From the NCBI GenBank assembly GCA_019448385.1, contig JAGTXO010000009.1, positions 1,054,001-1,118,000 of the forward strand: 64,000 bases of DNA. The letters are read 5' to 3'. A program made the position numbers and the translations under genes. Origin of the DNA: Diacronema lutheri (lineage: Eukaryota > Haptophyta > Pavlovophyceae > Pavlovales > Pavlovaceae). This document shows, one piece after another, positions 9,511 through 49,700 of the stretch. Position 1 is the stretch's first letter; each line of letters starts with the position of its first letter. The notes under the pieces were generated by a model, which was given only the letters and a program-made list of their open reading frames with translations, was not told where the DNA came from and did not search any database.

Positions 9511-12500
9511 ATGGCCGAGGGCGGCGACCGGACGGCGGCGCTGATCTCAATCGTGGGCGACTTTCTGCGCCAGGTCGGGTTCGACTCTACCTACCGCGCG
9601 CTCACCGCCGAGCTTGGCGCGTGGGAGCGCGCGCGCGCTCTCTCGGCGGCCGCGACGCACAGCGCGACGCTCGCCGAGCGCGATGCGGTCGCTCAGCTCG
9701 AGACGCTCTTTGCGCGGCTTTCGGCGGTGGGCCCGCCCAACGGCGCGTGTGCGGATGAGTCGAATTTTCCTCTCGCTGCTTTGGAGCAGCCGCCGCTCGC
9801 GGCGCACGCGCACGCCCCGCCTCGCGCTCGCGCATACACGCCGCCGCACGCGTCGCCCATGCGGCCGCTGGAGGATGAGAGCTGTGGCGACGTGGGCGGC
9901 GCGCTCGACGGCGGAGGTTCTGCCGCGTGTGAGGGCAAATGGCCGCACTCTGCTTCGCTCGACGCACTCGGCGCAAGCGGCGCTGGCGCGCCGCGCGCCG
10001 CACATGCGCCGTTCGTCGCAGGCGCGCTCGCCGAGGCCGCGGCCGCGGCCGCCGGCGCGCGCGGTGCGGCAGCATGCGCGCCGCTGCTCGGCCTCGTGCC
10101 CGGGGTAGGCAAGTGCGAGTCCAAATCAGACCGCTCGGACAGGTCCGACGTCGAGATGCGCCAGCCGCCCGGCGCGTTGTCCGACGACTCGCCCGCGTCC
10201 GCGCGCGCGGGCAGCGCGCTCGCGCCCGCGCCGACGGCGCCCGCCTGGGCTCCGCAGCCGCCGCTGCCGGCACCGTGCGAGCTGGCGGCATGCGCGCATT
10301 CGCCCGCGCATCCCGCTCACCTTTCGGCGATCGGCGCCGGCGCTGCCGGCGGCAGTATGGCGGCGCCGGAGTCGCCCGCACGACCAGAGGCGGGCGCTGC
10401 GGCCAGCGGCGCGGCGGCGGCCGGCGGCGCGGCCGACTCGCGGCAGCCGTCGGTCGAGCTGCCGCTGTACGTGGAGGTGGCGATGAATGACGACGACATT
10501 GACATCGTCGAGCAGGTGCGCGGCGGCCGGGCAGCTGTGCCCTCGCTGACTGGGCTGTGTGCCCTCGCTGGCTGGGCTGTGTGCCCTCGCTGACTGGGCT
10601 GTGTGCCATGCCCTCGCTGACTGGGCTGTGTGCCCTCGCTGACTGGGCTGTGTGCCATGCCTTCGCTGACTGGGCTGTGTGCCCTCGCTGACTGGGCTGT
10701 GTGCCCTCGCTGGCTGGGCTGTGTGCCCTCGCTGGTTGGGCTGTGTGCCCTCGCTGGCTGGGATGTTGTGCCCTCGCTGGCTGGGCTGTGTGCCATGCCC
10801 TCGTGGGCTGGGCTGTGTGCCCTCGCTGGCAGGGGTATGGGGTCCGAAGGTCGGGGCGAGATGAGGGCTCGAGGGAGGTTAGGGTAAGGATTAGAGCGAG
10901 TTTGCCCCGCCGCCTTCTACCTTCGACCCCCCCCCCCCCCCCCCTCTCGCTCCCCATCTCCCGCCCTGCCCGTGTGCCCGCCATGGCCTTTGCTAGTGCC
11001 GACGCTTTGGTCGCCTCATCTCCCGCCCTGCCCGTGTGCGCCCCCGACCGCCATGCTGACAGCTCGATTTTGAACAGAACGTTGTCTTCTTCACTGGCGA
11101 GGAGTGCGGGGCGCCTGCGCTGCCGTCGCCGTCCGCGGCGCCCGGCACGCCCGGCACGGCCCTCGCCGTCTTCCATCTGCCGATCGTGTACGACCCGGGT
11201 CGCAACTCGCTCGAGGAGAACGTCAACTTCCCGCTCGAGGCGGGCACGATCATCGCGGACAGGTACCGCATCGTCGAGCATCTCGGCTCCGGCGTCTTCT
11301 CGCGCGCAGTGCAGTGTGAGGAGATGGCGTCGGGCAAGCAGGTGGGCGCGCGCCCGCGCCATGGCCGTGCGCAGCTCGTCCGTCCCCGCCGGGCGCGTTG
11401 TGTGTGTGTGACGCTGCTCGCAACAGGGACAGGCGCGTTGTGTGTGTGTGACGCTGCTCGCAACAGGGACAGGCGCGTTGTGTGTGTGTGACGCTGCTCG
11501 CAACAGGGACAGGCGCGTTGTGTGTGTGCACGGGGCATCCGCGCCGTTCCAACCGCGCCGTGCCGCACGCGCGTGCGCCCAATCCAGCGAAGCCCCCACT
11601 CGCCAACTGCCGCCGCACGCGCTGGCTGCCTCCTGCCCCGCGCCTCCGCGCAGGTTTGCATCAAAGTGATTCGGAACAATAAGGACTTTCTCGACCAATC
11701 ACTCGGCGAGATTAAGCTGCTGCAGCACCTCAACGTGCACGACCCGCGCGACGAGCGCCACGTGCTGCGCATGCTCGACTACTTTTACTTCCGCGAGCAC
11801 CTCTTCATCGTCTGCGAGCTCATGCGCGACAACCTCTACGAGGCAAGCACGCTGCCATCCCCCCCCTCTTCCCCCTCCCCCTGTGAGCTCATGCGCGACA
11901 ACCTCTACGAGGCAAGCACGCTGCCCTCCCCCCCCCCTTCCCTCTCCCCCTGTGAGCTCATGCGCGACAACCTCTACGAGGCAAGCACGCTGCCATCCCC
12001 CCCCTCTTCCCCCTCCCCCTGTGAGCTCATGCGCGACAACCTCTACGAGGCAAGCACGCTGCCATCCCCCCCCTCTTCCCCCTCCCCCTGCGAGCTCATG
12101 CGCGACAACCTCTACGAGGCAAGCACGCTGCCCTCCCCCCCCCTCTTCCCCCTCCCCCTGCGAGCTCATGCGCGACAACCTCTACGAGGCAAGCACGCTG
12201 CCATCCCCCCCCTCTTCCCCCTCCCCCTGTGAGCTCATGCGCGACAACCTCTACGAGGCAAGCACGCTGCCCTCCCCCCCCTCTTCCCCCTCCCCCTGTG
12301 AGCTCATGCGCGACAACCTCTACGAGGCAAGCACGCTGCCATCCCCCCCCTCCTCCCTCCCCCTGTGAGCTCATGCGCGACAACCTCTACGAGGCAAGCA
12401 CGCTGCCCTCCCCCCCCTCTTCCCTCTCTTCCCTCTCCCCCTGTGAGCTCATGCGCGACAACCTCTACGAGGCAAGCACGCTGCCCTCCCCCCCCTCTTC

Positions 12501-15500
12501 CCCCTCCCCCTGTGAGCTCATGCGCGACAACCTCTACGAGGCAAGCACGCTGCCCTCCCCCCCCTCTTCCCTCTCCCCCTGTGAGCTCATGCGCGACAAC
12601 CTCTACGAGGCAAGCACGCTGCCATCCCCCCCCCCCTCCCTCTCCCCCTGTGAGCTCATGCGCGACAACCTCTACGAGGCAAGCACGCTGCCCTCCCCCC
12701 CCCCTCTTCCCTCTTCCCCCTCCCCCTGTGAGCTCATGCGCGACAACCTCTACGAGGCAAGCACGCTGCCATCCCCCCCCTCCTCCCTCCCCCTGTGAGC
12801 TCATGCGCGACAACCTCTACGAGGCAAGCACGCTGCCCTCCCCCCCCTCTTCCCCCTCCCCCTGTGAGCTCATGCGCGACAACCTCTACGAGGCAAGCAC
12901 GCTGCCCTCCCCCCCCCTCTTCCCCCTCCCCCTGTGAGCTCATGCGCGACAACCTCTACGAGGCAAGCACGCTGCCATCCCCCCCCTCTTCCCCCTCCCC
13001 CTGTGAGCTCATGCGCGACAACCTCTACGAGGCAAGCACGCTGCCCTCCCCCCCCTCTTCCCCCTCCCCCTGTGAGCTCATGCGCGACAACCTCTACGAG
13101 GCAAGCACGCTGCCATCCCCCCCCTCTTCCCCCTCCCCCTGTGAGCTCATGCGCGACAACCTCTACGAGGCAAGCACGCTGCCCTCCCCCCCCTCTTCCC
13201 TCTCCCCCTGTGAGCTCATGCGCGACAACCTCTACGAGGCAAGCACGCTGCCATCCCCCCCCCCCTCCCTCTCCCCCTGTGAGCTCATGCGCGACAACCT
13301 CTACGAGGCAAGCACGCTGCCCTCCCCCCCCCCTCTTCCCTCTTCCCCCTCCCCCTGTGAGCTCATGCGCGACAACCTCTACGAGGCAAGCACGCTGCCA
13401 TCCCCCCCCTCCTCCCTCCCCCTGTGAGCTCATGCGCGACAACCTCTACGAGGCAAGCACGCTGCCCTCCCCCCCCTCTTCCCCCTCCCCCTGTGAGCTC
13501 ATGCGCGACAACCTCTACGAGGCAAGCACGCTGCCCTCCCCCCCCCTCTTCCCCCTCCCCCTGTGAGCTCATGCGCGACAACCTCTACGAGGCAAGCACG
13601 CTGCCCCTCCCCCCCCCCCCCCCCCCTCTTCCCTCTCCCCCTGTGAGCTCATGCGCGACAACCTCTACGAGGCAAGCACGCTGCCCTCCCCCCCCTCTTC
13701 CCCCTCCCCCTGCGAGCTCATGCGCGACAACCTCTACGAGGCAAGCACGCTGCCATCCCCCCCCTCTTCCCCCTCCCCCTGTGAGCTCATGCGCGACAAC
13801 CTCTACGAGGCAAGCACGCTGCCCTCCCCCCCCTCTTCCCTCTCCCCCTGTGAGCTCATGCGCGACAACCTCTACGAAGCGAGCGTGCTACCCTCCCCCC
13901 CCTCTTCCCCCTCCCCCTGTGAGCTCATGCGCGACAACCTCTACGAGGCAAGCACGCTGCCCTCCCCCCCCTCTTCCCTCTCCCCCTGCGAGCTCATGCG
14001 CGACAACCTCTACGAGGCAAGCACGCTGCCCCTCCCCCCCCCCCCCCCCCCTCTTCCCTCTCCCCCTGTGAGCTCATGCGCGACAACCTCTACGAGGCAA
14101 GCACGCTGCCCTCCCCCCCCTCTTCCCCCTCCCCCTGCGAGCTCATGCGCGACAACCTCTACGAGGCAAGCACGCTGCCCCTCCCCCCCCCCCCCCCCCC
14201 CTCTTCCCCCTCCCCCTGTGAGCTCATGCGCGACAACCTCTACGAGGCAAGCACGCTGCCCTCCCCCCCCTCCTCCCTCTCCCCCTGTGAGCTCATGCGC
14301 GACAACCTCTACGAGGCAAGCACGCTGCCATCCCCCCCCCTCTTCCCCCTCCCCCTGCGAGCTCATGCGCGACAACCTCTACGAGGCAAGCACGCTGCCC
14401 TCCCCCCCCCCCCCCCCTCCCCCTGCGAGCTCATGCGCGACAACCTCTACGAGGCAAGCACGCTGCCATCCCCCCCCTCTTCCCCCCTCCTCCCCCTCCC
14501 CCTGCGAGCTCATGCGCGACAACCTCTACGAGGCAAGCACGCTGCCATCCCCCCCTCCTCCCTCCCCCTGTGAGCTCATGCGCGACAACCTCTACGAGGC
14601 AAGCACGCTGCCCCTCCCCCCCCCCTTCCCCCTCCCCCTGTGAGCTCATGCGCGACAACCTCTACGAGGCAAGCACGCTGCCCTCCCCCCCCTCTTCCCT
14701 CTCCCCCTGTGAGCTCATGCGCGACAACCTCTACGAGGCAAGCACGCTGCCCTCCCCCCCCTCTTCCCCCTCCCCCTGTGAGCTCATGCGCGACAACCTC
14801 TACGAGGCAAGCACGCTGCCCTCCCCCCCCTCTTCCCCCTCCCCCTGTGAGCTCATGCGCGACAACCTCTACGAGGCAAGCACGCTGCCCCTCCCCCCCC
14901 CCCTCCCCCTCTCCCCCTGTGAGCTCATGCGCGACAACCTCTACGAGGCAAGCACGCTGCCCTCCCCCCCCTCTTCCCTCTCCCCCTGTGAGCTCATGCG
15001 CGACAACCTCTACGAAGCGAGCACGCTGCCATCCCCCCCCTCTTCCCCCTCCCCCTGCGAGCTCATGCGCGACAACCTCTACGAGGCAAGCACGCTGCCC
15101 TCCCCCCCCTCTTCCCCCTCCCCCTGTGAGCTCATGCGCGACAACCTCTACGAGGCAAGCACGCTGCCATCCCCCCCCCCCCTCCCTCTTCCCTCTCCCC
15201 CTGTGAGCTCATGCGCGACAACCTCTACGAGGCAAGCACGCTGCCCTCCCCCCCCCCCTCTTCCCTCTTCCCCCTCCCCCTGCGAGCTCATGCGCGACAA
15301 CCTCTACGAGGCAAGCACGCTGCCCTCCCCCCCCTCTTCCCTCTCCCCCTGTGAGCTCATGCGCGACAACCTCTACGAAGCGAGCACGCTGCCATCCCCC
15401 CCCCTCTTCCCCCTCTTCCCTCTCCCCCTGCGAGCTCATGCGCGACAACCTCTACGAGGCAAGCACGCTGCCCTCCCCCCCCCCCTTCCCTCTCCCCCTG

Positions 15501-18500
15501 CGAGCTCATGCGCGACAACCTCTACGAGGCAAGCACGCTGCCCTCCCCCCCCCCCCCCCCCCCCTCTTCCCCCTCCCCCTGTGAGCTCATGCGCGACAAC
15601 CTCTACGAGGCAAGCACGCTGCCCCTCCCCCCCCCCTTCCCCCTCCCCCTGTGAGCTCATGCGCGACAACCTCTACGAGGCAAGCACGCTGCCCTCCCCC
15701 CCCTCTTCCCCCTCCCCCTGCGAGCTCATGCGCGACAACCTCTACGAAGCGAGCGTGCTACCCTCCTCACCTCCTTCCCGCCCGCCCCGCTCACCTGCCC
15801 CGCCCGCCCCGCTCCCGCTCCCGCCGCGTGCCGGCATGGCGCTCCGCCGCGCGTGCCCGTGCAGATCTACAAGTTTGCGGCCAATTCGAACTGGGCGCCG
15901 TATTTTAACTTGCCGAGGACGCTCGCCGTCGCGCGGCAGTGCCTCGAGGCGCTCGCGTTCATGCACTCGCTCGAGCTGATCCACTGCGACCTCAAGCCCG
16001 AGAACATTCTCATCAAGAGCCTATCCCGCTGCGTGGTCAAAGTGATCGATTTTGGATCCTCCTGCTTCTTGCGCGACCCCCATTCTTCCTATGTGCAGTC
16101 GCGCTCGTACCGCGCACCGGAGGTTGTGCTCGGCCTGCCCTACTCGGCCAAGATTGACGTGTGGTCACTGGGCTGCATCCTGGCCGAGCTTCTGATCGGC
16201 GAGGTGCTCTTCCGCAACTCGAGCGCGCAAACGCTCATCGCAGCGTGGCTTGCGCTTCTCGGGCCCGTGCCCACCGCCATGCTGCGCAAGGGGCGGCACA
16301 CGCATCTCTACTTTCTGCGCGGCCGGCTCTTCTCGCGCCCGCCCGCGGATGGCGACGCGCGCGCCTTTGCCTACCTCGTGCCTCGTCAATCTTCGCTGCG
16401 CGAGCGGCTCTCGCCGTTCGCTACGGCATGCGCGGCCGGTGGCGGCGGTGGCGGCGCGGCCGGCGGAGGCGGCGGTGGCGGCGGTGGCGGCGGCGGCGGC
16501 GCGGGCGGCGGTGGCGGCGCGGGCGGGTCGTACGCGGGCGCGGTCGAGCTTGAGTTTTACGACTTCATGGCGTCGCTGCTGCAGATCGACCCGAACAGAC
16601 GGCCGACAGCAGCCCAAGCCCTTCAGCATCCGTGCATGTTACGCGCAGCGCGAACCCCGCCCGATATGTACCGGCCAGTGGGCGTCGGTGGCTGCGTCGG
16701 CTGCGCGTCGGCGGACGCAGCGTCGACGGGGCGGCGGAGCGACACGCTCGACGGTACCAGCGTGCGGCGGACGCCGCCGTCGCTCGCCTCCGACCCTCCG
16801 GCCGCGCCGGCGGTCGCCGCCGGCGCAACCGGCGCGCAGCGCGTCGTCGCGCACGTGCCCTTCGCGCTCGCGATGAGCGAGCTGCGAGCCGCGCAATTGG
16901 CCGCGTGCGCGGCGGCGGCCGGCGGCGTCTCCGGGCGCGCGAGCGGCCGAACATCGACGGCACATTCGCGGCCAACTTCGGCGGCGGGAACTCCTGTGCG
17001 CAACAAGCGAGGCAGCGCGACGGCGGGGATGGGCGGCGCGTGCGGCGGCGGGCGCGCCGCGCCGGCGAGCTGGGCGGAGCGCGCGTCCGCCGCTTCGGAA
17101 CGATTGGCAGGCGGCGGCCTGGGCGTGGGTGGCGGAGGGGGCGGAGCTGCGTCGGGAACGACTTCGTCGGGGAACCGATCGAACGCCTCATCCGAACCGT
17201 CCACGTCGCCCAGCGGGCGCGCGGCAGGCGGCGCGGCCGTCGCGCCGCTTGAGCGCCAGCGGAGCGGGCCGGACACGCACGATCACCTGGCGCCATTAAT
17301 TTGCGGTGCTGGCGGGGGCCTCGGCAGCAGCTGCTTCGCCGGCGGCGCTGGTGGCGGTTACTGCGGCGGCGGGTACTGCTCTGCGGGCGCGGGCTGCTCG
17401 CTCGGCACCACGCAGCCGCCGCGTGCGCCGCGCGCGTCGTTGCGCCGCTCGGGCGACATATCGCCCGCTTCGCCGCGCCGGTCGATGCCCGCGGCCTTTG
17501 CGCCGAGCGCCGCCGGCGGCGGCGGCCCGGCGGGCGCGGGCGCGCGGCTGGGCGGCTGCGGCGGCGGCTGCGGCGGCGGCGGCTGCGGCGGCGGCGGCGG
17601 CTGCGGCGGCGGCTGCGGCGCGTCCGCCGTGCCGCCGGCGCAGCCGCTCGTCGCGTGGGCATGCGCACCGGACAGCGCACCGGACAGCGCGCCGGACAGC
17701 GCGCCGGACAGCGCACCGGACAGCGCGGGCGCGCGCGCGGGCTGCACCGCTGCGGCGCACGGGCCGCCGCGCGGCTCGGCGCCGGCGGGTGCCGGCGGCT
17801 CGCCGTGCCGCGCGGCGCCATGCGCCGCGGCCGGGGCCGTTACGGGCGCGTGCGCTGATGGGTGTAACGTCGCCCCATCCGTGCTGACCCAGGCCGGTCC
17901 GCTGCACGCGCGCCGGCCGTCGGCGCCGCGCGTGCGTGGCCTGCAGGTGGTCGTGTCGGGCGTGGATGCGCCGAATTTTGAAGCGCAGGAGGCGGACGCG
18001 ACGGCTCGCGCGTGCGCTGTGGCGGCCGCCTGCGCGGGCGGCGCGGGCGGCGCGCACGCGGCGGGCGCGGACGCGGACGGCGCGCTGGTCGACGAGGGCG
18101 GCGGCGAGGGCGAGGGCGAGGGCGGCGGCGAGGGCGAGGGCGAGGGCGGCGGCGAGGGCGAGGGCGAGGGCGGCGGCGAGGGCGAGGGCGAGGGCGGCGG
18201 CGAGGGCGACGAGCCCGATCGTGATCCATCGCCGACGCTTGGCACGTCGGCTGCCTTCCGCGAGCAGCTCGGCCGCACCCGCCTCCACCAGGGCTGGGCA
18301 TCAGAATGGCTGCCGGAGGCCACGTCGCCCATTCACGGGCCGTCCGCGGACGTTGGCAGTGCGCGGCTGTGGAAGAAGCGCGGGCGCGTCGGCGCGCCCG
18401 CCATGCCGACGTCGCCGTCGCGCGTCTCGCCGCGCCCGCACCCCGCGCCGGCGGGCGGCGGCGCCGGCGGCTACGCGGGCGGCGGCGAGCGCGAGCCGCG

Positions 18501-21570: not shown

Positions 21571-24500
21571 CTGCTGGGGGTAGGAGTGGGGGTAGGTTGG
21601 GCGGACGGCTGCGGGCTGCGGAGCTGCTAAGCAAAGGCGCCCTCTGCGGGGGGGGGGGGGGGGGGGGGGGGGGGGGTAGGAGTGGGGGTAGGTTGGGCGG
21701 ACGGCTGCGGGCTGCGGAGCTGCTAAGCAAAGGCGCCCTCTGCGCACCGCACCGCCACGCTCCACCCGTGTGCCACGCAGCGCCCGACGAACGCGCCGAC
21801 CACACCGCCCCCCCCCCCCCCCCCCCCCCCCCCCTTCCTTCCCTTGCCCCTTTCCCTCCCCCCTTTCTTTCCCCCTTTCTTTCCCCCTTCCCTTCCTCCT
21901 TTCCCTTCCCTTTGCCTGCACGCGATTGCGCCTCTGCATGGGGCCGCGCCCCATCGCGCGCAGGGCGTAGGCGACATGTTCACAGACCCGCAAGTCCACT
22001 CGGCCGACGGGCTGGGGTACGGCGACGGCAACCTGGGCGTGCACGGCATGGCGCTCTTCCTCGCCACCTTTGAGTACAACCAGCTCTGCGCGGACCTTGG
22101 CCTGCCGCCCTTCCCCATCGCGCCTTCCGAACAGCGGCGCGCGCGCGTGACGCACGTGCTTGGAGCGTCAGCCGTCGCGCACGCGGCGGCCGACCTCTCG
22201 GCGACGGCGGGCGAGCGCCTCTTGCACCAGGCGCTCGTGGCGGCCGACTCGTCGCTCGAGTCTTCGATCGGCGGCTCGGGCGGCGCGGGCACGCAGGCGC
22301 TCCACCACCACCGCGCCGCGTCCGCCGCGCCGAGCGGCGCAGGCGCGGGCGCGCGGCACGATGGCGTCGTTGACGCGGGCACGAGCGGTTGTGGTGCGGA
22401 CGTAGGCTCGGAGGGCGGCACGCTCTCTGCGCGAATGGAGGTGCTCCTCGACAAGCTCGTCTGCGCGCAGGCCGCTGGCCTCACGCGCAGCCGCGCGGGC
22501 GCGTCCACGCCCGGGAGTGCGTGCGAGGGGGCGAGCGCGCAGCCATCGTGCGAGAAGGCGAGCGCGCAGCCATCGTGCGAGGAGGCGAGCGCGCCGCCAT
22601 CGTGGGTGCGCAAAAGCAGCGGGGCCCCATCGGCCGCGGAGGAGGGCAGCGCGCAAAGCACGGCGGCTGAGAGCGCCGAGAATGGCGCCTCGTCCACCGT
22701 CCTCGAGCAGGCGCAGATTGACGCCTTGCCATGGCCCGCGCTCGCAGCCGCAATATCGCGCTGCGCGCGCAGCTGCGCGCACACCGCGGCGGACGGCGCG
22801 GGTAGGCGCGCCGGCGCGTCGGACGCGGCCGGCGACGCGATCGGGCTCTCGCCCGCGCTCGGCGCGGACGGCGCGCACCCATCGCCGTGCGGCTCGCCGA
22901 GCGCGGCCATGGCAGCCGCCGAGCGGCGCATGCGTCCGGCGATGAGTCCGGCGATGCGTCTGGCGGTGAGTCCGGCGATGAGTCCGGCGATGAGTCCGGC
23001 GATGCGTCCGGCGATGGACGCGCACGCGCGCGACGTTGCCGCGTTGCACCTGCCGCCGCAGGCGGTCGCGCAGGCGGCCTCGGGCGCCGCGCGCGCGGAC
23101 GCCGGCGCGAGCGGCGCAGCTGCGCGCGCGAGCGGCGGCGAGGGCGGCGTTGGCGACGGCAGCGGCGGTGGTCGCGGCACCGACGAGCGCGCGCCAGTTG
23201 CGCCGGGCGGCGCGCCCGACGAGCGGCGCGACGAGGCGCCGCGCGCATCGCCCGCCCCCGCCGCCGACGACGCCGCGAGAGCGCCGACGCGCGCAGACGG
23301 CGCGAGCGCGAGCGCGTGCACGAGCACGAGCGCGCCCGGGGTCGGCGGCGCGCTGCTCGGGCCTGACGGCGAGGTCGGAGGCGAAGAGGAGCGCGCGCGC
23401 ATCGAGCAAGCGGTGCACGCGAAGGTTTGCGCGCAGCGCGGACGCGCGCTGCGCACGCACTTTCGCGCACGCGAGCAGCTGCGCGCGGCCGCTGCGCGCA
23501 TGTGTGACGCGCCGAATCGCAGTCGGCGCGCCTGCGCAAACTGTGCCCACGCACTCGCCTCCCCCTTCCCGAGCCCGTTTCTGGTGCGAGCGCTCGCGTC
23601 ACTGACCTCGCCACTGCCGACTGTGCTGCCCTGTCGCACTGCACTGACCTGCTCACACGTACTCGCCACTGCCGACTGTGCTGCCCTGTCGCACGGCACT
23701 GACCTGCTCACACCTACTCGCCACTGCCGACTGTGCTGCCCTGTCGCACGGCACTGACCTGCTCACACCTACTCGCCACTGCCGACTGTGCTGCCCTGTC
23801 GCGCTGCACTGACCTGCTCACATGTACTCGCCGCTGCCGACTGTGCTGCCCTGTCGCACTGCACTGACCTGCTCACACCTACTCGCCACTGCCGACTGTG
23901 CTGCCCTGTCGCACGGCACTGACCTGCTCACACGTACTCGCCACTGCCGACTGTGCTGCCCTGTCGCACGGCACTGACCTGCTCACACCTACTCGCCACT
24001 GCCGACTGTGCTGCCCTGTCGCACTGCACTGACCTGCTCACACGTACTCGCCACTGCCGACTGTGCTGCCCTGTCGCACGGCACTGACCTGCTCACACCT
24101 ACTCGCCACTGCCGACTGTGCTGCCCTGTCGCGCGGCACTGACCTGCTCACACGTACTCGCCACTGCCGACTGTGCTGCCCTGTCGCGCGGCACTGACCT
24201 GCTCACACGTACTCGCCACTGCCGACTGTGCTGCCCTGTCGCACTGCACTGACCTGCTCACACGTACTCGCCACTGCCGACTGTGCTGCCCTGTCGCACG
24301 GCACTGACCTGCTCACACCTACTCGCCACTGCCGACTGTGCTGCCCTGTCGCACTGCACTGACCTGCTCACACGTACTCGCCACTGCCGACTGTGCTGCC
24401 CTGTCGCACTGCACTGACCTGCTCACACGTACTCGCCACTGCCGACTGTGCTGCCCTGTCGCACTGCACTGACCTGCTCACACGTACTCGCCACTGCCGA

Positions 24501-26398
24501 CTGTGCTGCCCTGTCGCACGGCACTGACCTGCTCACACCTACTCGCCACTGCCGACTGTGCTGCCCTGTCGCACTGCACTGACCTGCTCACACGTACTCG
24601 CCACTGCCGACTGTGCTGCCCTGTCGCACGGCACTGACCTGCTCACACGTACTCGCCACTGCCGACTGTGCTGCCCTGTCGCGCGGCACTGACCTGCTCA
24701 CGCGTACTCGCCACTGCCGACTGTGCTGCCCTGTCGCGCGGCACTGACCTGCTCACACGTACTCGCCACTGCCGACTGTGCTGTCCTGTCGCACTGCACT
24801 GACCTGCTCACACGTACTCGCCACTGCCGACTGTGCTGCCCTGTCGCACTGCACTGACCTGCTCACACGTACTCGCCACTGCCGACTGTGCTGCCCTGTC
24901 GCACTGCACTGACCTGCTCACACGTACTCGCCACTGCCGACTGTGCTGCCCTGTCGCGCGGCACTGACCTGCTCACACGTACTCGCCACTGCCGACTGTG
25001 CTGCCCTGTCGCACTGCACTGACCTGCTCACATGTACTCGCCGCTGCCGACTGTGCTGTCCTGTCGCACGGCACTGACCTGCTCACACCTACTCGCCACT
25101 GCCGACTGTGCTGTCCTGTCGCACGGCACTGACCTGCTCACACCTACTCGCCACTGCCGACTGTGCTGCCCTGTCGCACGGCACTGACCTGCTCACACCT
25201 ACTCGCCACTGCCGACTGTGCTGCCCTGTCGCGCGGCACTGACCTGCTCACGCGTACTCGCCACTGCCGACTGTGCTGTCCTGTCGCGCTGCACTGACCT
25301 GCTCACACGTACTCGCCACTGCCGACTGTGCTGCCCTGTCGCACGGCACTGACCTGCTCACACGTACTCGCCGCTGCCGACTGTGCTGTCCTGTCGCACT
25401 GCACTGACCTGCTCACACCTACTCGCCACTGCCGACTGTGCTGCCCTGTCGCACTGCACTGACCTGCTCACATGTACTCGCCACATACCTCCGCTCACAC
25501 GCGCGCGCGCGCATCCGCGCATCCGCGCCGCGCGCCGCGCGCCGCTCCGCAGATCCACATGACACTCGCCAAACTGAACTATACGGGCACGCTGCCCGGC
25601 CAGAGGCCCGACCAGCCCGACATGCCCGCAGCCACGTTCCACCTCTGCCACGCTGCGGCGGCCGGCTCGACTGACGCGACGCGCGAGATGCTCGCGCTGT
25701 GCCGCGGCATGCCGTCCATGTTACTGCCCGAGCTCGCGTTCGCCGCCGAGCAGCCGTTGCGCGCGCGCGCGCTGCTCGAGCTCGCCGCGTGGCAGGGCGA
25801 TCGCTTCGCGTGCGCAGAGCTCGCCGATGCGGGCATTGCGCGCGCGCGAACGGCGCCTCCCGCGCGCGTGGGCGGCGATGGCGTGCGCGGCGGTGGCGAT
25901 GCGAACGGGGACGACGGCGGGGGCGACGGCAGGGGCGCTGACGGCAGGGGCGCTGACAGCGGCGCGCGCGGAGGCGAGCGCGGCGGCGGTGGCGGCGACG
26001 GCGGCGAGGAACGGCGCGGCGGGCGCACGGGCGACGCACTCGTTGAGCGCTACGGCGCCGACGCGGCGGCGGACGCCGCGCGTTGGCTCGAGCACGCGCT
26101 CGCGTGCGCCGAGCGCTCGGGCGGCTGGAGCGACGCGCAGGACATCGAGGCCGAACAGAGCAGCGCCGCCGACTTTCAACTGTGCGCAAAGCTGGGCGAG
26201 GCACTCGAGATGTGCGCGCGATGGGCGCAGGCGGCGGACGCGTACGAGCGCGCGGCGGAGTGCGCGATGGCGCGCTCCAAGGGCAAGCTGAGCTTTCAGT
26301 TGAGCGAACGAGCGGAGGCCGCGAGGGCCAACGCGGAGGAGGACGCTGACGAGGCCGTCGACGGCGACGCCGACGGGACAGCGGTCTCGGCCGTCTGA
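20501..26398 (+). CDS. EEF2K: Eukaryotic elongation factor 2 kinase (alpha-kinase)
   Basis: Exons 20501-21019, 21125-21409, 21964-23424 and 25553-26398 give 1,036 residues. Order: a Trp-containing calmodulin-binding-like stretch (ALWALAKAAS...DPW, ~70-87), an alpha-kinase domain (~105-340) with FGKGAMRECFRLKK, YVAKRYL, VQMQAEAKLWAGRYN, GPYTKYNGNSGYVS, VVDIQGVGDMFTDPQ and GYGDGNLG, a ~370-residue low-complexity linker, and a C-terminal helical region matching human eEF2K (FHLCHAAAAGS, AADAYERAAECAMARSKGKL). The family phosphorylates eEF2 and slows elongation. The first intron is 105 nt, in frame and without stops. Intron 2 has a GC donor (GGCGAGC). Aligning from memory with human eEF2K, three of four structural zinc ligands appear replaced (SLFTF for SHFTF; FEYNQLC for HACNRIC). 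Intron 3 carries a 55-bp minisatellite. Confidence 0.93.
21430..21834. repeat. Repeats and poly(G)/poly(C) runs in eEF2K intron 2
   Basis: Three copies of a segment containing GGGTAGGAGTGGGGGTAGG and GCTGCTAAGCAAAGGCGCCC, with poly(G) runs at 21525-21570 (46) and 21648-21676 (29) beside them. A 27-base poly(C) run follows at 21808-21834, then a C/T-rich tract to about 21920. Everything lies in the intron 21410-21963. Confidence 0.9.
23594..25490 (+). repeat. 55-bp minisatellite, ~34 units, in eEF2K intron 3
   Basis: The word GACCTGCTCA recurs every 55 bp from 23646 to 25461, which is 34 occurrences, with a partial unit before it. Units are nearly identical, with alternating variants at a few sites (ACGTACTCG, ACCTACTCG, ATGTACTCG; GCACTGCACT, GCACGGCACT, GCGCGGCACT). 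No unit I read contains AG on the sense strand, and this continues to the acceptor at 25552. Confidence 0.97.
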
Positions 26399-46702: not shown

Positions 46703-49700
46703 TCAATCCGTCTCGCCGAGCCGCTCGAGCATCGACTCGACCGCCTTGGTCGCCTTCTCCAGCTTGTCCTTTGGATCGACCTTGGATTGGCCGCCGGCGA
46801 GGGCGCCGGCCGAGAGCGGCATGAGCGCGTTGACGACGCCTTCGAACGGCGAGCCGCCCGAGAACGCGGCGACGCCGAAGAAGATGAAGACAAAGACGAG
46901 CGCGACGAAGCCGAGCAGCCCGCCGAGCGCGCCCACGATCGCCGCGCTCGACAGCCCCAGGTCGCGCAGCGTCTGATATGTGAGCTCGCGCTGCAGATAC
47001 TCGTACGCCTTCTCGAACTCATCCATGTTGATCGAGCCGTCAGAGTCCGCGTCGGCCTTTGCAAAGAACTGCATCGCGCGCTGGCGCGAGATGTTGATGC
47101 CCATGTTCTTGATCACCTCCTCGAACTCGAAGAGCTCCTGCTCCGTCGCCACCGCCGCCGCGCGCGCCACGGTGAGCGCGTGCGTGAGCGCGCGGCGCAC
47201 GCGCGGCGCGCGACGCGCGGCGTGCGCGGCGTGCGCGACGCACCATGATGCCCGAGCGGTCGGCGTCAAAGTAGACGAAGATCTCCTGCGGTGTGTTCAG
47301 CTTGGCCACGTCCTCCATGCCCGTCGCGGCCGCGCGCAACGCCGAGCCGCCGAGCGCGAGCGCGCGCGAGCGCGCCGTCTCGACAGCGGCGAGGAGCGCG
47401 CGGATGCGCGCGGCGTCGAACTCGCACACGCGGCTGGCGAGGTCCTCGATGCCGTCCAGGTCGCCCACCGCGAGCGCGGCGAAGCCGAGCACGAGCTCGG
47501 GCTGCACGCGGAAGGACTCGGCGAGCGTGCCGAGCGCAGCGCGCGCGTCGGCGGGCAGCTGAGCGTCGGATGCGGTTGGTCGATCAATTGTCTTAAGACA
47601 CGAGAGGAGTTGCAGGAGCGCGCAGAGGAGCGTGCCCGCCTGCTCGAGCTCCTCGGGCGGCAGCTTGGCGAGCGCTTGCGCCTCCTGCGCGCGCGCGGCG
47701 AGCTGCAGTACCGTTGGTACGCTCAAGCTGGGTAAGGGAGGGGGTTTGAAGCGGGGAGTGTGGGTGGGAACGGAAGGATTGGCGAGGCGGAGGGGCGCGC
47801 GCGCGGTGTCAGTCAAATGAGCCGGCAGCGGCGCGCGGGGCGGCGCCCTCGGCTTCCCAACCCCAGCCGCGTCCCCTCACGCGCTCGGCTTCCCAACCCC
47901 AGCCGCGTCCCCTCACGCGCTCGGCTTCCCAACCCCAGCCGCGTCCCCTCACGCGCTTAGCTTCCCAACCCCAGCCCCGTCCCACTCACGCGCTCGGCTT
48001 CCCAACCCCAGCCGCGTCCCCTCACGCGCTTAGCTTCCCAACCCCAGCCCCGTCCCACTCACGCGCTCGGCTTCCCAACCCCAGCCGCGTCCCCTCACGC
48101 GCTCGGCTTCCCAACCCCAGCCCCGTCCCCTCACGCGCTCGGCTTCCCAACCCCAGCCGCGTCCCCTCACGCGCTCGGCTTCCCAACCCCAGCCGCGTCC
48201 CCTCACGCGCTCGGCTTCCCAACCCCAGCCGCGTCCCTTCACGCGCTCGGCTTCCCAACCCCAGCCGCGTCCCCTCACGCGCTCGGCTTCCCAACCCCAG
48301 CCGCGTCCCCTCACGCGCTCGGCTTCCCAACCCCAGCCGCGTCCCCTCACGCGCTCGGCTTCCCAACCCCAGCCGCGTCCCCTCACGCGCTCGGCTTCCC
48401 AACCCCAGCCGCGTCCCCTCACGCGCTTAGCTTCCCAACCCCAGCCGCGTCCGCTCACGCGCTCGGCTTCCCAACCCCAGCCGCGTCCCCTCACGCCCTC
48501 GGCTTCCCAACCCCAGCCGCGTCCCCTCACGCGCTTAGCTTCCCAACCCCAGCCGCGTCCCCTCACGCCCTCGGCTTGCCAACCCCAGCCCCGTCCCCTC
48601 ACGTGCGCGCACAGGAGCGGCTCGAGGAAGGCCGGGTCGGTGCCGGCGAGGTAGAGCGCGCGCAGGAGGGCATGCTGCTCATCCGGGATTTCAATCGCGT
48701 CGAGCAACACGCCCATCGTCTCGATGCCGCCGCCACCGTCGACGCCGCGCTGGATGGGCAAACGCAGCTGCGCGATCGCGCGCACGAGCCGCATCTGGTC
48801 GACGACGCTGTGTGCGAGCGCGGGCACGACCTGCGCGGCCGCGCCGCCGATCGCGCCCGCGGCGGCGGTCGCGCCGCGCGCGCCGCGCGCGTCGGCGTGG
48901 CGCGCGGCCTCGTCAGCCAACGCGTGCGCGTCGGCGCGCGCGCGCTCGTGCGCGTCGGCGGCTGCGCTCGCCGCCGCGTCGTGCGCGTCGCGCGCCGCCT
49001 GGCCGAGCGCGCGCTCGACAAGGGCGAGCAGCTCGGGAGGGCCGTCGGGGTACGTGGCGCTCAGGTCCCGGCTCGCGTCGGTGAGCGCGACGATCTCGTC
49101 GACAAGGCCGGCGGGCATGCCGGTCATGCGCGCGAGCGCGGGCGCAAATTCGGCCGCATCGAAGCACACGAGCCCGAGCAGCGCGCGGCACGCCTCGGCG
49201 GTCGGCTGCTCGGCGCGCGGTCCGAAACGGCGAACGAGCTCGGCGAAGGCGCGCGCGTGCCGCTCCCACGCGCGCGGCTCGAGCGCGCCGCGGCGCATCA
49301 CGGACACGAGAAGCGCGGCGGCGCCGTCAATGTATCGCCGCGCGCCCTCGACGCTGCCCTCGCCCTCGTCCGCCGCCGCGTCGGCGAGCGCGCCCGCCGC
49401 GGCGAGCGTCTCGATGCCCTCGGCGGCGAGCACAAAGTAGCCGTTACTCGCGCCAAAGATGAGGCGCGCCGCGCCCGAGGGGAGGACGCGCGCGCGCGCG
49501 ATCGCCGCGTCGATGGCGGGCAGCGCGCGGCCGAGGCCGAGAGCGCGGCGGAAGAGGGACAGGAGCGCGTGCAGCAGTACGCGCGCGTCGACGTCGGCGC
49601 CGGCGCCGTCGGCGGGCAGTAGGAGCGCGCGGCGCATCACGTAGTCACGCACGGACGCGTCGCCGCGGTTGGCGGCGAGGTTGAGCACGCACGCGACGAG

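Follow-up and report, generated by a model that had tools for sequence, protein, structure and literature searches.

A minisatellite at an exon-intron border carries tens of copies of the 5' splice site of a DYRK kinase gene in the alga Diacronema lutheri

Why would an intron of a protein kinase gene carry tens of copies of the end of the exon that precedes it? The question is raised by intron 3 of a DYRK kinase gene in the haptophyte alga Diacronema lutheri, which lies in a stretch of 64,000 nucleotides (hereafter the window; positions 1,054,001 to 1,118,000 of contig JAGTXO010000009.1, here C36, in assembly GCA_019448385.1). A sequence-only reading of the window had described about 56 copies of a unit of about 69 bp in this intron, and had proposed that each copy might be spliced in as a 24-nt cassette exon. 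Here we confirm that the array is real, with corrections to that description, and report a second array in a paralogous gene and further arrays at the edges of other exons. We consider it probable that the array is a minisatellite derived from a duplication across the exon-intron border, which is tolerated, removed as one intron, homogenised, and one member of a class in this genome.

Tandem Repeats Finder gave the array (Table 1) a period of 69, 55.7 copies and a score of 6205, and direct counting gave 56 copies, starting at positions 11816 to 15722, in agreement with the earlier number. The unit size and the head-to-tail arrangement (69 bp x 55.7) are those of a minisatellite. The intron copies consist of an exon piece, a donor, and then a short near-constant stretch and a C-rich tract, so that the unit spans the end of the exon and the start of the intron. 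The repetition of the end of exon 3 had been seen correctly, but the repeated piece is 31 nt (CTGYGAG followed by a 24-nt core) and not 24 nt; before the repeat, exon 3 holds exon-specific sequence (...TTCATCGTCTGCGAG...), and the exon ends in TACGAG. The donor context is GAG/GCAAGC in 52 of the 56 copies and GAA/GCGAGC in the other four, including the last, which qualifies the claim that GGCAAGC recurs in each unit. Similarly, 69 nt is the length of 31 of the 55 complete units, the range being 66 to 81 nt, and 38 of the 55 lengths are multiples of 3. Every copy thus bears a donor of equal or near-equal sequence, amounting to 56 near-identical 5' splice sites, and the earlier suggestion of a splice-site decoy array stands as anatomy. 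A C-run of at least 7 is present in all 55 complete units of the window and in 61 of 63 in the paralogous array on contig C34 described below; the lengths of these runs, and hence the frame of each unit, depend on the long-read consensus within the repeat. In addition, a block of 6 units in the window array recurs 9 units away, a recurrence reached by 0 of 500 shuffles.

The assignment of the gene to the DYRK kinases was borne out. The kinase domain matches Pfam PF00069 (E 3.7e-51), and the solved chains that it matches best are those of DYRK1B, DYRK2, DYRK3 and DYRK1A (E from about 1e-52 to 1e-50), followed by CLK/PRP4 chains. The four exons of our gene model, when joined, form an open frame of 1495 residues, in which introns 1 and 2 have GT donors and intron 3 a GC donor. 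A LisH domain suspected at the N-terminus was dropped, as none was found in Pfam at E up to 0.1. When we sought D. lutheri gene models or transcripts in a protein collection, no record named for the species was among the matches listed (120 of 6253 and 120 of 4707), many of which are nameless; in the first of these listings, the query length excluded proteins longer than about 1330 residues. A further search of the collection gave none either.

We searched the genome (43,492,796 bases in 103 contigs, the window being C36:1054001-1118000) for the 23-mer CTCATGCGCGACAACCTCTACGA. With as many as 2 mismatches allowed, it occurred 120 times, 56 forward and 64 reverse, against 0 for the reversed control, and the places among the matches listed (100 of 120) were all on C36 and C34. 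Perfect copies numbered 56 in the window array and 64 in an array at the same exon edge of a second DYRK gene, on C34. The two paralog arrays therefore account for 120 of the 120 counted unit copies, and they differ in copy number. Over the 120 copies, the last base is the only variable one in the 24-nt core (A for G in four copies, all in the window), and the Cys codon ahead of it is TGT or TGC; both variants are synonymous. The six commonest unit types are present in both arrays. The order of units is not common to them, and no runs of unit types were shared between the two arrays beyond chance (487 of 500 shuffles reached the observed 2).

Repeats are hard to assemble, and one of the arrays described below, on contig C48, reaches a contig end. 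Even so, an assembly artefact or collapsed haplotypes, which the sequence-only reading had allowed for, would be an extremely improbable source of the array, as the two loci differ in their flanks, copy number and unit order. In the available part of its description, moreover, the D. lutheri NIVA-4/92 assembly (43.50 Mb in 103 contigs, the longest 3.042 Mb, with 852.26 kb at half assembly) was built from PacBio reads at about 315-fold with a read N50 of 23 kb, and polished with Illumina reads; the same publication describes three RNA-seq libraries (PMC8379373; the genome is deposited as BioProject PRJNA725470).

The duplication of the kinase gene is old, because one related protein, P0121 (Pavlovales sp. 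CCMP2436, a partial gene model), resembles the window gene (NLYEIYKF), and another, P0001, resembles the C34 gene (NLYEMYKY). The last 63 nt of exon 3, contiguous with the arrays, are identical in the two D. lutheri paralogs, whereas the coding sequence past the arrays is 73% identical in C34 exon 4 and 75% in C34 exon 5, that is, 27% and 25% of the aligned bases differ. Such an identical exon tract beside the arrays, followed by coding sequence this different, points to ectopic exchange between the paralogs. Both paralogs also read YFYF where both relatives read YFYY. Exon 4 also contains 45 nt (window 16123-16167) in which the paralogs do not differ, although the surrounding sequence has diverged; this may be a second tract of conversion.

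The kinase array also appears to belong to a wider class of exon-edge arrays in the D. lutheri genome. We surveyed the genome for repeat-spaced triplets of a donor-like word (AGGTGMG), with gaps set for periods of 27-57 and of 58-88, for which 100 of 113 and 100 of 104 places were listed, respectively. These listed places group into 35 arrays, and the upstream flank was read in 29. Six of these 29 seem to have as their first copy the end of a coding exon that lies on the same strand as the donor (Table 1); in two others (C19:133 kb and C36:861 kb), strand and exon were ambiguous. Homology confirmed one of the six, the C48 exon being that of a GDP-mannose 4,6-dehydratase (Pfam E 6.3e-15; solved chain 1db3_A, E 1.5e-17). 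For the exon ends of C97, C59 and both C63 arrays, the evidence is an open frame and a codon score of 16-25. Training of the score used 20 of 30 kinase loci, the other 10 being excluded because of stop codons, and its control values were up to 12 inside the C36 array and negative inside the C97 array. Pfam gave no match in the C97, C63 and C59 pieces, and the first donor was placed by hand for C97 and the two C63 loci. The C31 array is the weakest of the six, because its score is close to the control of 12; its exon resembles a ShK-like domain, below the Pfam cut-off (E 0.019). The exon end and donor are paired with a long G- or C-run in both kinase arrays, C31, both C63 arrays and C48. The units of C97 are open in the exon's frame (VGYDRRCAAREGRG repeats), so their translation is possible. 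As the C48 array runs off its contig, such arrays may break assemblies.

Table 1 Features of the window kinase gene and exon-edge arrays elsewhere in the genome (window positions unless a contig is named; a slash marks an exon border)
Feature	Position	Strand	Description
Kinase exon 1 (model)	9511..10515	+	frame open; donor CAG/GTGCGC
Kinase exon 2 (model)	11078..11341	+	frame-consistent; protein alignable to P0001 and P0121
Kinase exon 3	11654..11842	+	ends in CELMRDNLYE, in what we take to be the hinge/alpha-D region; last 31 nt are array copy 1; aligned to DYRK1B chain 8c2z_A
Tandem array	11812..15766	+	~69 bp unit; 56 copies, the exon's own and 55 within intron 3
Exon piece repeated per unit	11812..11842	+	31 nt, CTGYGAG and 24 nt
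Intron 3	11843..15864	+	4022 nt, GC-AG, phase 0; GAG/GCAAGC ... GTGCAG/ATC; junction NLYE/IYKF contiguous in P0121
Last array copy	15722..15790	+	intron part diverged (GAAGCGAGCGTGCTACCC...)
Kinase exon 4 (model), through stop codon	15865..18894	+	
C97 array (L082)	C97:205900-207760		17-nt exon piece; 41 copies spaced exactly 42 bp; next exon in phase
C31 array	C31		39-nt exon piece; codon score 13
C63 array	C63, near 16.5 kb		exon piece 18 nt in nearest copy, 9 nt in four further copies
C63 array	C63, near 22.6 kb		exon piece 9 nt
C59 array	C59		starts 3 nt before donor
C48 array (L094, L096)	C48:1-1950		14-nt exon piece; 14 copies of GCAAG/GTGCGC, reaching contig end

How could such an array arise and persist? 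In the scenario that we favour, a tandem duplication would have copied the last 31 nt of exon 3 together with the 5' splice site and the C-rich start of intron 3, and the copies would then have multiplied into a minisatellite, aided by slippage and unequal exchange at the C-runs. The units would have been homogenised by exchange, also with the C34 paralog, and the whole array would be excised as a single 4.0-kb GC-AG intron, from the first donor at 11843 to the last acceptor at 15864. With exon and splice site both intact in the first copy, the duplication could be tolerated, and excision as one intron would leave the protein unchanged. Since only the intron lengthens, arrays of this kind would be free to drift in length, with G/C-runs and unequal exchange as the drivers. 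A duplication across the 5' splice site would explain the exon copies, the paralog array, the spread of unit lengths and the occurrence of such arrays at other loci. We infer this order of events, as well as the exclusive use of the first donor and the lack of a function.

That intron 3 would be spliced from the donor at 11843 only is suggested by the tolerance argument and by the two related proteins, whose junctions hold no insert (NLYE/IYKF in P0121 and NLYE/MYKY in P0001). The same junctions argue against cassette splicing or exon repetition, in which the units would be spliced in as in-frame 24-nt exons to give LMRDNLYE repeats. An AG does stand before CTC at phase 0 in every copy, in the intron copies it is preceded by a long pyrimidine tract and followed by a donor, and a cassette would always be in frame because the duplicated piece consists of whole codons. 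However, this AG, which had been placed exactly at the unit's exon border, lies inside the 31-nt piece and is the end of the exon's own duplicated Glu codon (TGY GAG), with G at -3. The in-unit acceptors are thus all GAG, whereas, of the seven acceptors that we placed in the two kinase models by frame and homology, six are CAG and one is AAG. Furthermore, only ~45 nt separate a donor from the next in-unit AG, and the intron part of the unit has no adenosine past +8 in 36 of the 55 window units and one in the other 19, leaving little room for a branch point. We therefore regard the cassette proposal as very unlikely.

Splice sites were also surveyed at 19 of 20 split kinase loci, which gave 23 gaps between exon matches; 12 of the 23 introns were taken as confident, and GC donors were found in 3 of these 12. 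Their acceptors were all CAG, and were not used as evidence because the scoring favoured CAG.

If the last donor were used instead, the array would be an exon and its repeats would be translated. The intron would then span about 117 nt, from the last donor to 15864, a length like those inferred for introns in other kinase genes, and the complete window units sum to 0 mod 3. However, the frame read through from exon 3, said earlier to be open for about 390 nt, is closed by a stop after 387 nt in the window and 672 nt in C34; both introns contain 9-18 stops per frame, and the C34 units sum to 2 mod 3. Translation of the whole array is hardly credible on these grounds.

Alternatively, the array might act as a rheostat, with some transcripts using a downstream donor and the array length setting the kinase output. 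The first few copies would then give +23-residue insertions at alpha-D, and the others a frameshift or stop and nonsense-mediated decay. Consistent with this, donor k joined to the final acceptor keeps an open frame only for the first five of the 56 donors in the window and the first seven of the 64 in C34, among donors that are nearly identical throughout, and the array is retained in both paralogs. The proximity of the kinase to DYRK and then to CLK/PRP4 chains also fits, since relatives of these kinases act on splicing factors. On the other hand, non-kinase genes bear such arrays, namely that for GDP-mannose 4,6-dehydratase and that at C97, where 41 of 41 donors are in frame, and the frame counts of the kinase arrays depend on C-run lengths and are predicted from sequence only. 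We consider a rheostat unlikely. A broader hypothesis, which we hold to be rather improbable, is that genome-wide exon-edge minisatellites provide ordinary introns with equivalent 5' splice sites by the tens, the choice of the first one being enforced or regulated, the array length tuning the share of productive kinase mRNA, and the exon end co-evolving with its intronic copies.

Several points weigh against a tolerated, functionless duplication. The near-perfect identity of the exon piece over 120 copies could also mean selection: 2 of its 31 columns are variable, both at synonymous third positions, versus 4 of 14 intron columns, a difference that is not significant (Fisher p = 0.065; p = 0.13 when pooled with C97). 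P0121 and P0001 may derive from genes without this intron, and the first donor is only the presumed site of splicing. As for the genomic class, the donor-like words were not clearly enriched, with 113 places versus 274 in the reversed control for periods 27-57 and 104 versus 73 for periods 58-88, and, as the survey covered the donor side, a preference for donors would be conjectural.

With which known systems should the kinase array be compared? Introners are repeated sequences in introns whose copies are inserted into many genes; in contrast, the kinase unit is confined to two arrays of one gene pair, and none of its 120 copies is dispersed. Tandem cassette exons and mutually exclusive exon clusters consist of repeated exon-like pieces, each with a donor, but the kinase units lack acceptors like those of the gene models, and their coding piece diverges only at synonymous bases. 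An intron in potato RdRp reportedly arose when a segment containing splice signals was duplicated in tandem. There, too, tandem duplication puts splice signals beside an exon, but in D. lutheri an existing intron grows and no new intron is seen.

Earlier, no described equivalent had been known for the array, a claim that the further arrays in the same genome contradict, as do published human cases. In genes of human segmental duplications, tandem repeats at exon-intron boundaries make or lengthen introns, with 27 intron modifications given in the available part of that paper (De Grassi and Ciccarelli 2009, PMC2812944). As in D. lutheri, these are minisatellites at the exon-intron border of duplicated paralogs that differ in copy number. 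The human units, as far as that part describes them, average 30 bp x 4 and have RNA support (PMC2812944), whereas the kinase arrays, known from the genome alone, reach 56 and 64 copies, with a full 5' splice site in every one, and the recurrence of arrays in one genome is a feature of the alga. Boundary repeats are thus already known, and what sets the present case apart is its scale, with a complete donor in each of tens of copies, and its recurrence in one alga. In the openly licensed literature searched, we found no exon-edge array of tens of copies that each hold a splice site.

The choice between competing 5' splice sites is usually studied with few sites. Here, two paralogs present 56 and 64 near-identical donors, all in one exon context, and arrays in other genes count at least 4 to 41 copies over the parts that were read, constituting a natural test of splice-site choice among many equal sites. 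If the first donor always wins, a simple nearest-to-acceptor choice would be ruled out in this alga; if it does not, the array length would be a dial on gene output. The arrays further suggest a route for harmless intron growth, and a way for the coding end of an exon to undergo concerted evolution with noncoding copies.

Other arrays stand close to splice sites in different ways. In the window, a 36 bp x 21 array on the minus strand (47844-48603) starts at the donor CAC/GTGAGG of a long open exon and repeats the donor with no exon piece, and two intron minisatellites, at 56001-57072 (38 bp x 28) and 23607-25484 (55 bp x 34), start about 20-45 nt past an apparent donor and contain no exon copy. 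At C4:698790-699812, one of the places listed (100 of 224) in a search for such words, an array of about 62-66 bp has a GC-donor-like word, AGGCAAG, in its units. Finally, a 19-bp array (L079, C28:306030-306780) abuts, on the other strand, an acceptor-like CAG ahead of the frame DEPTNHLDASSV..., which presumably resembles an ABC-F ATPase.

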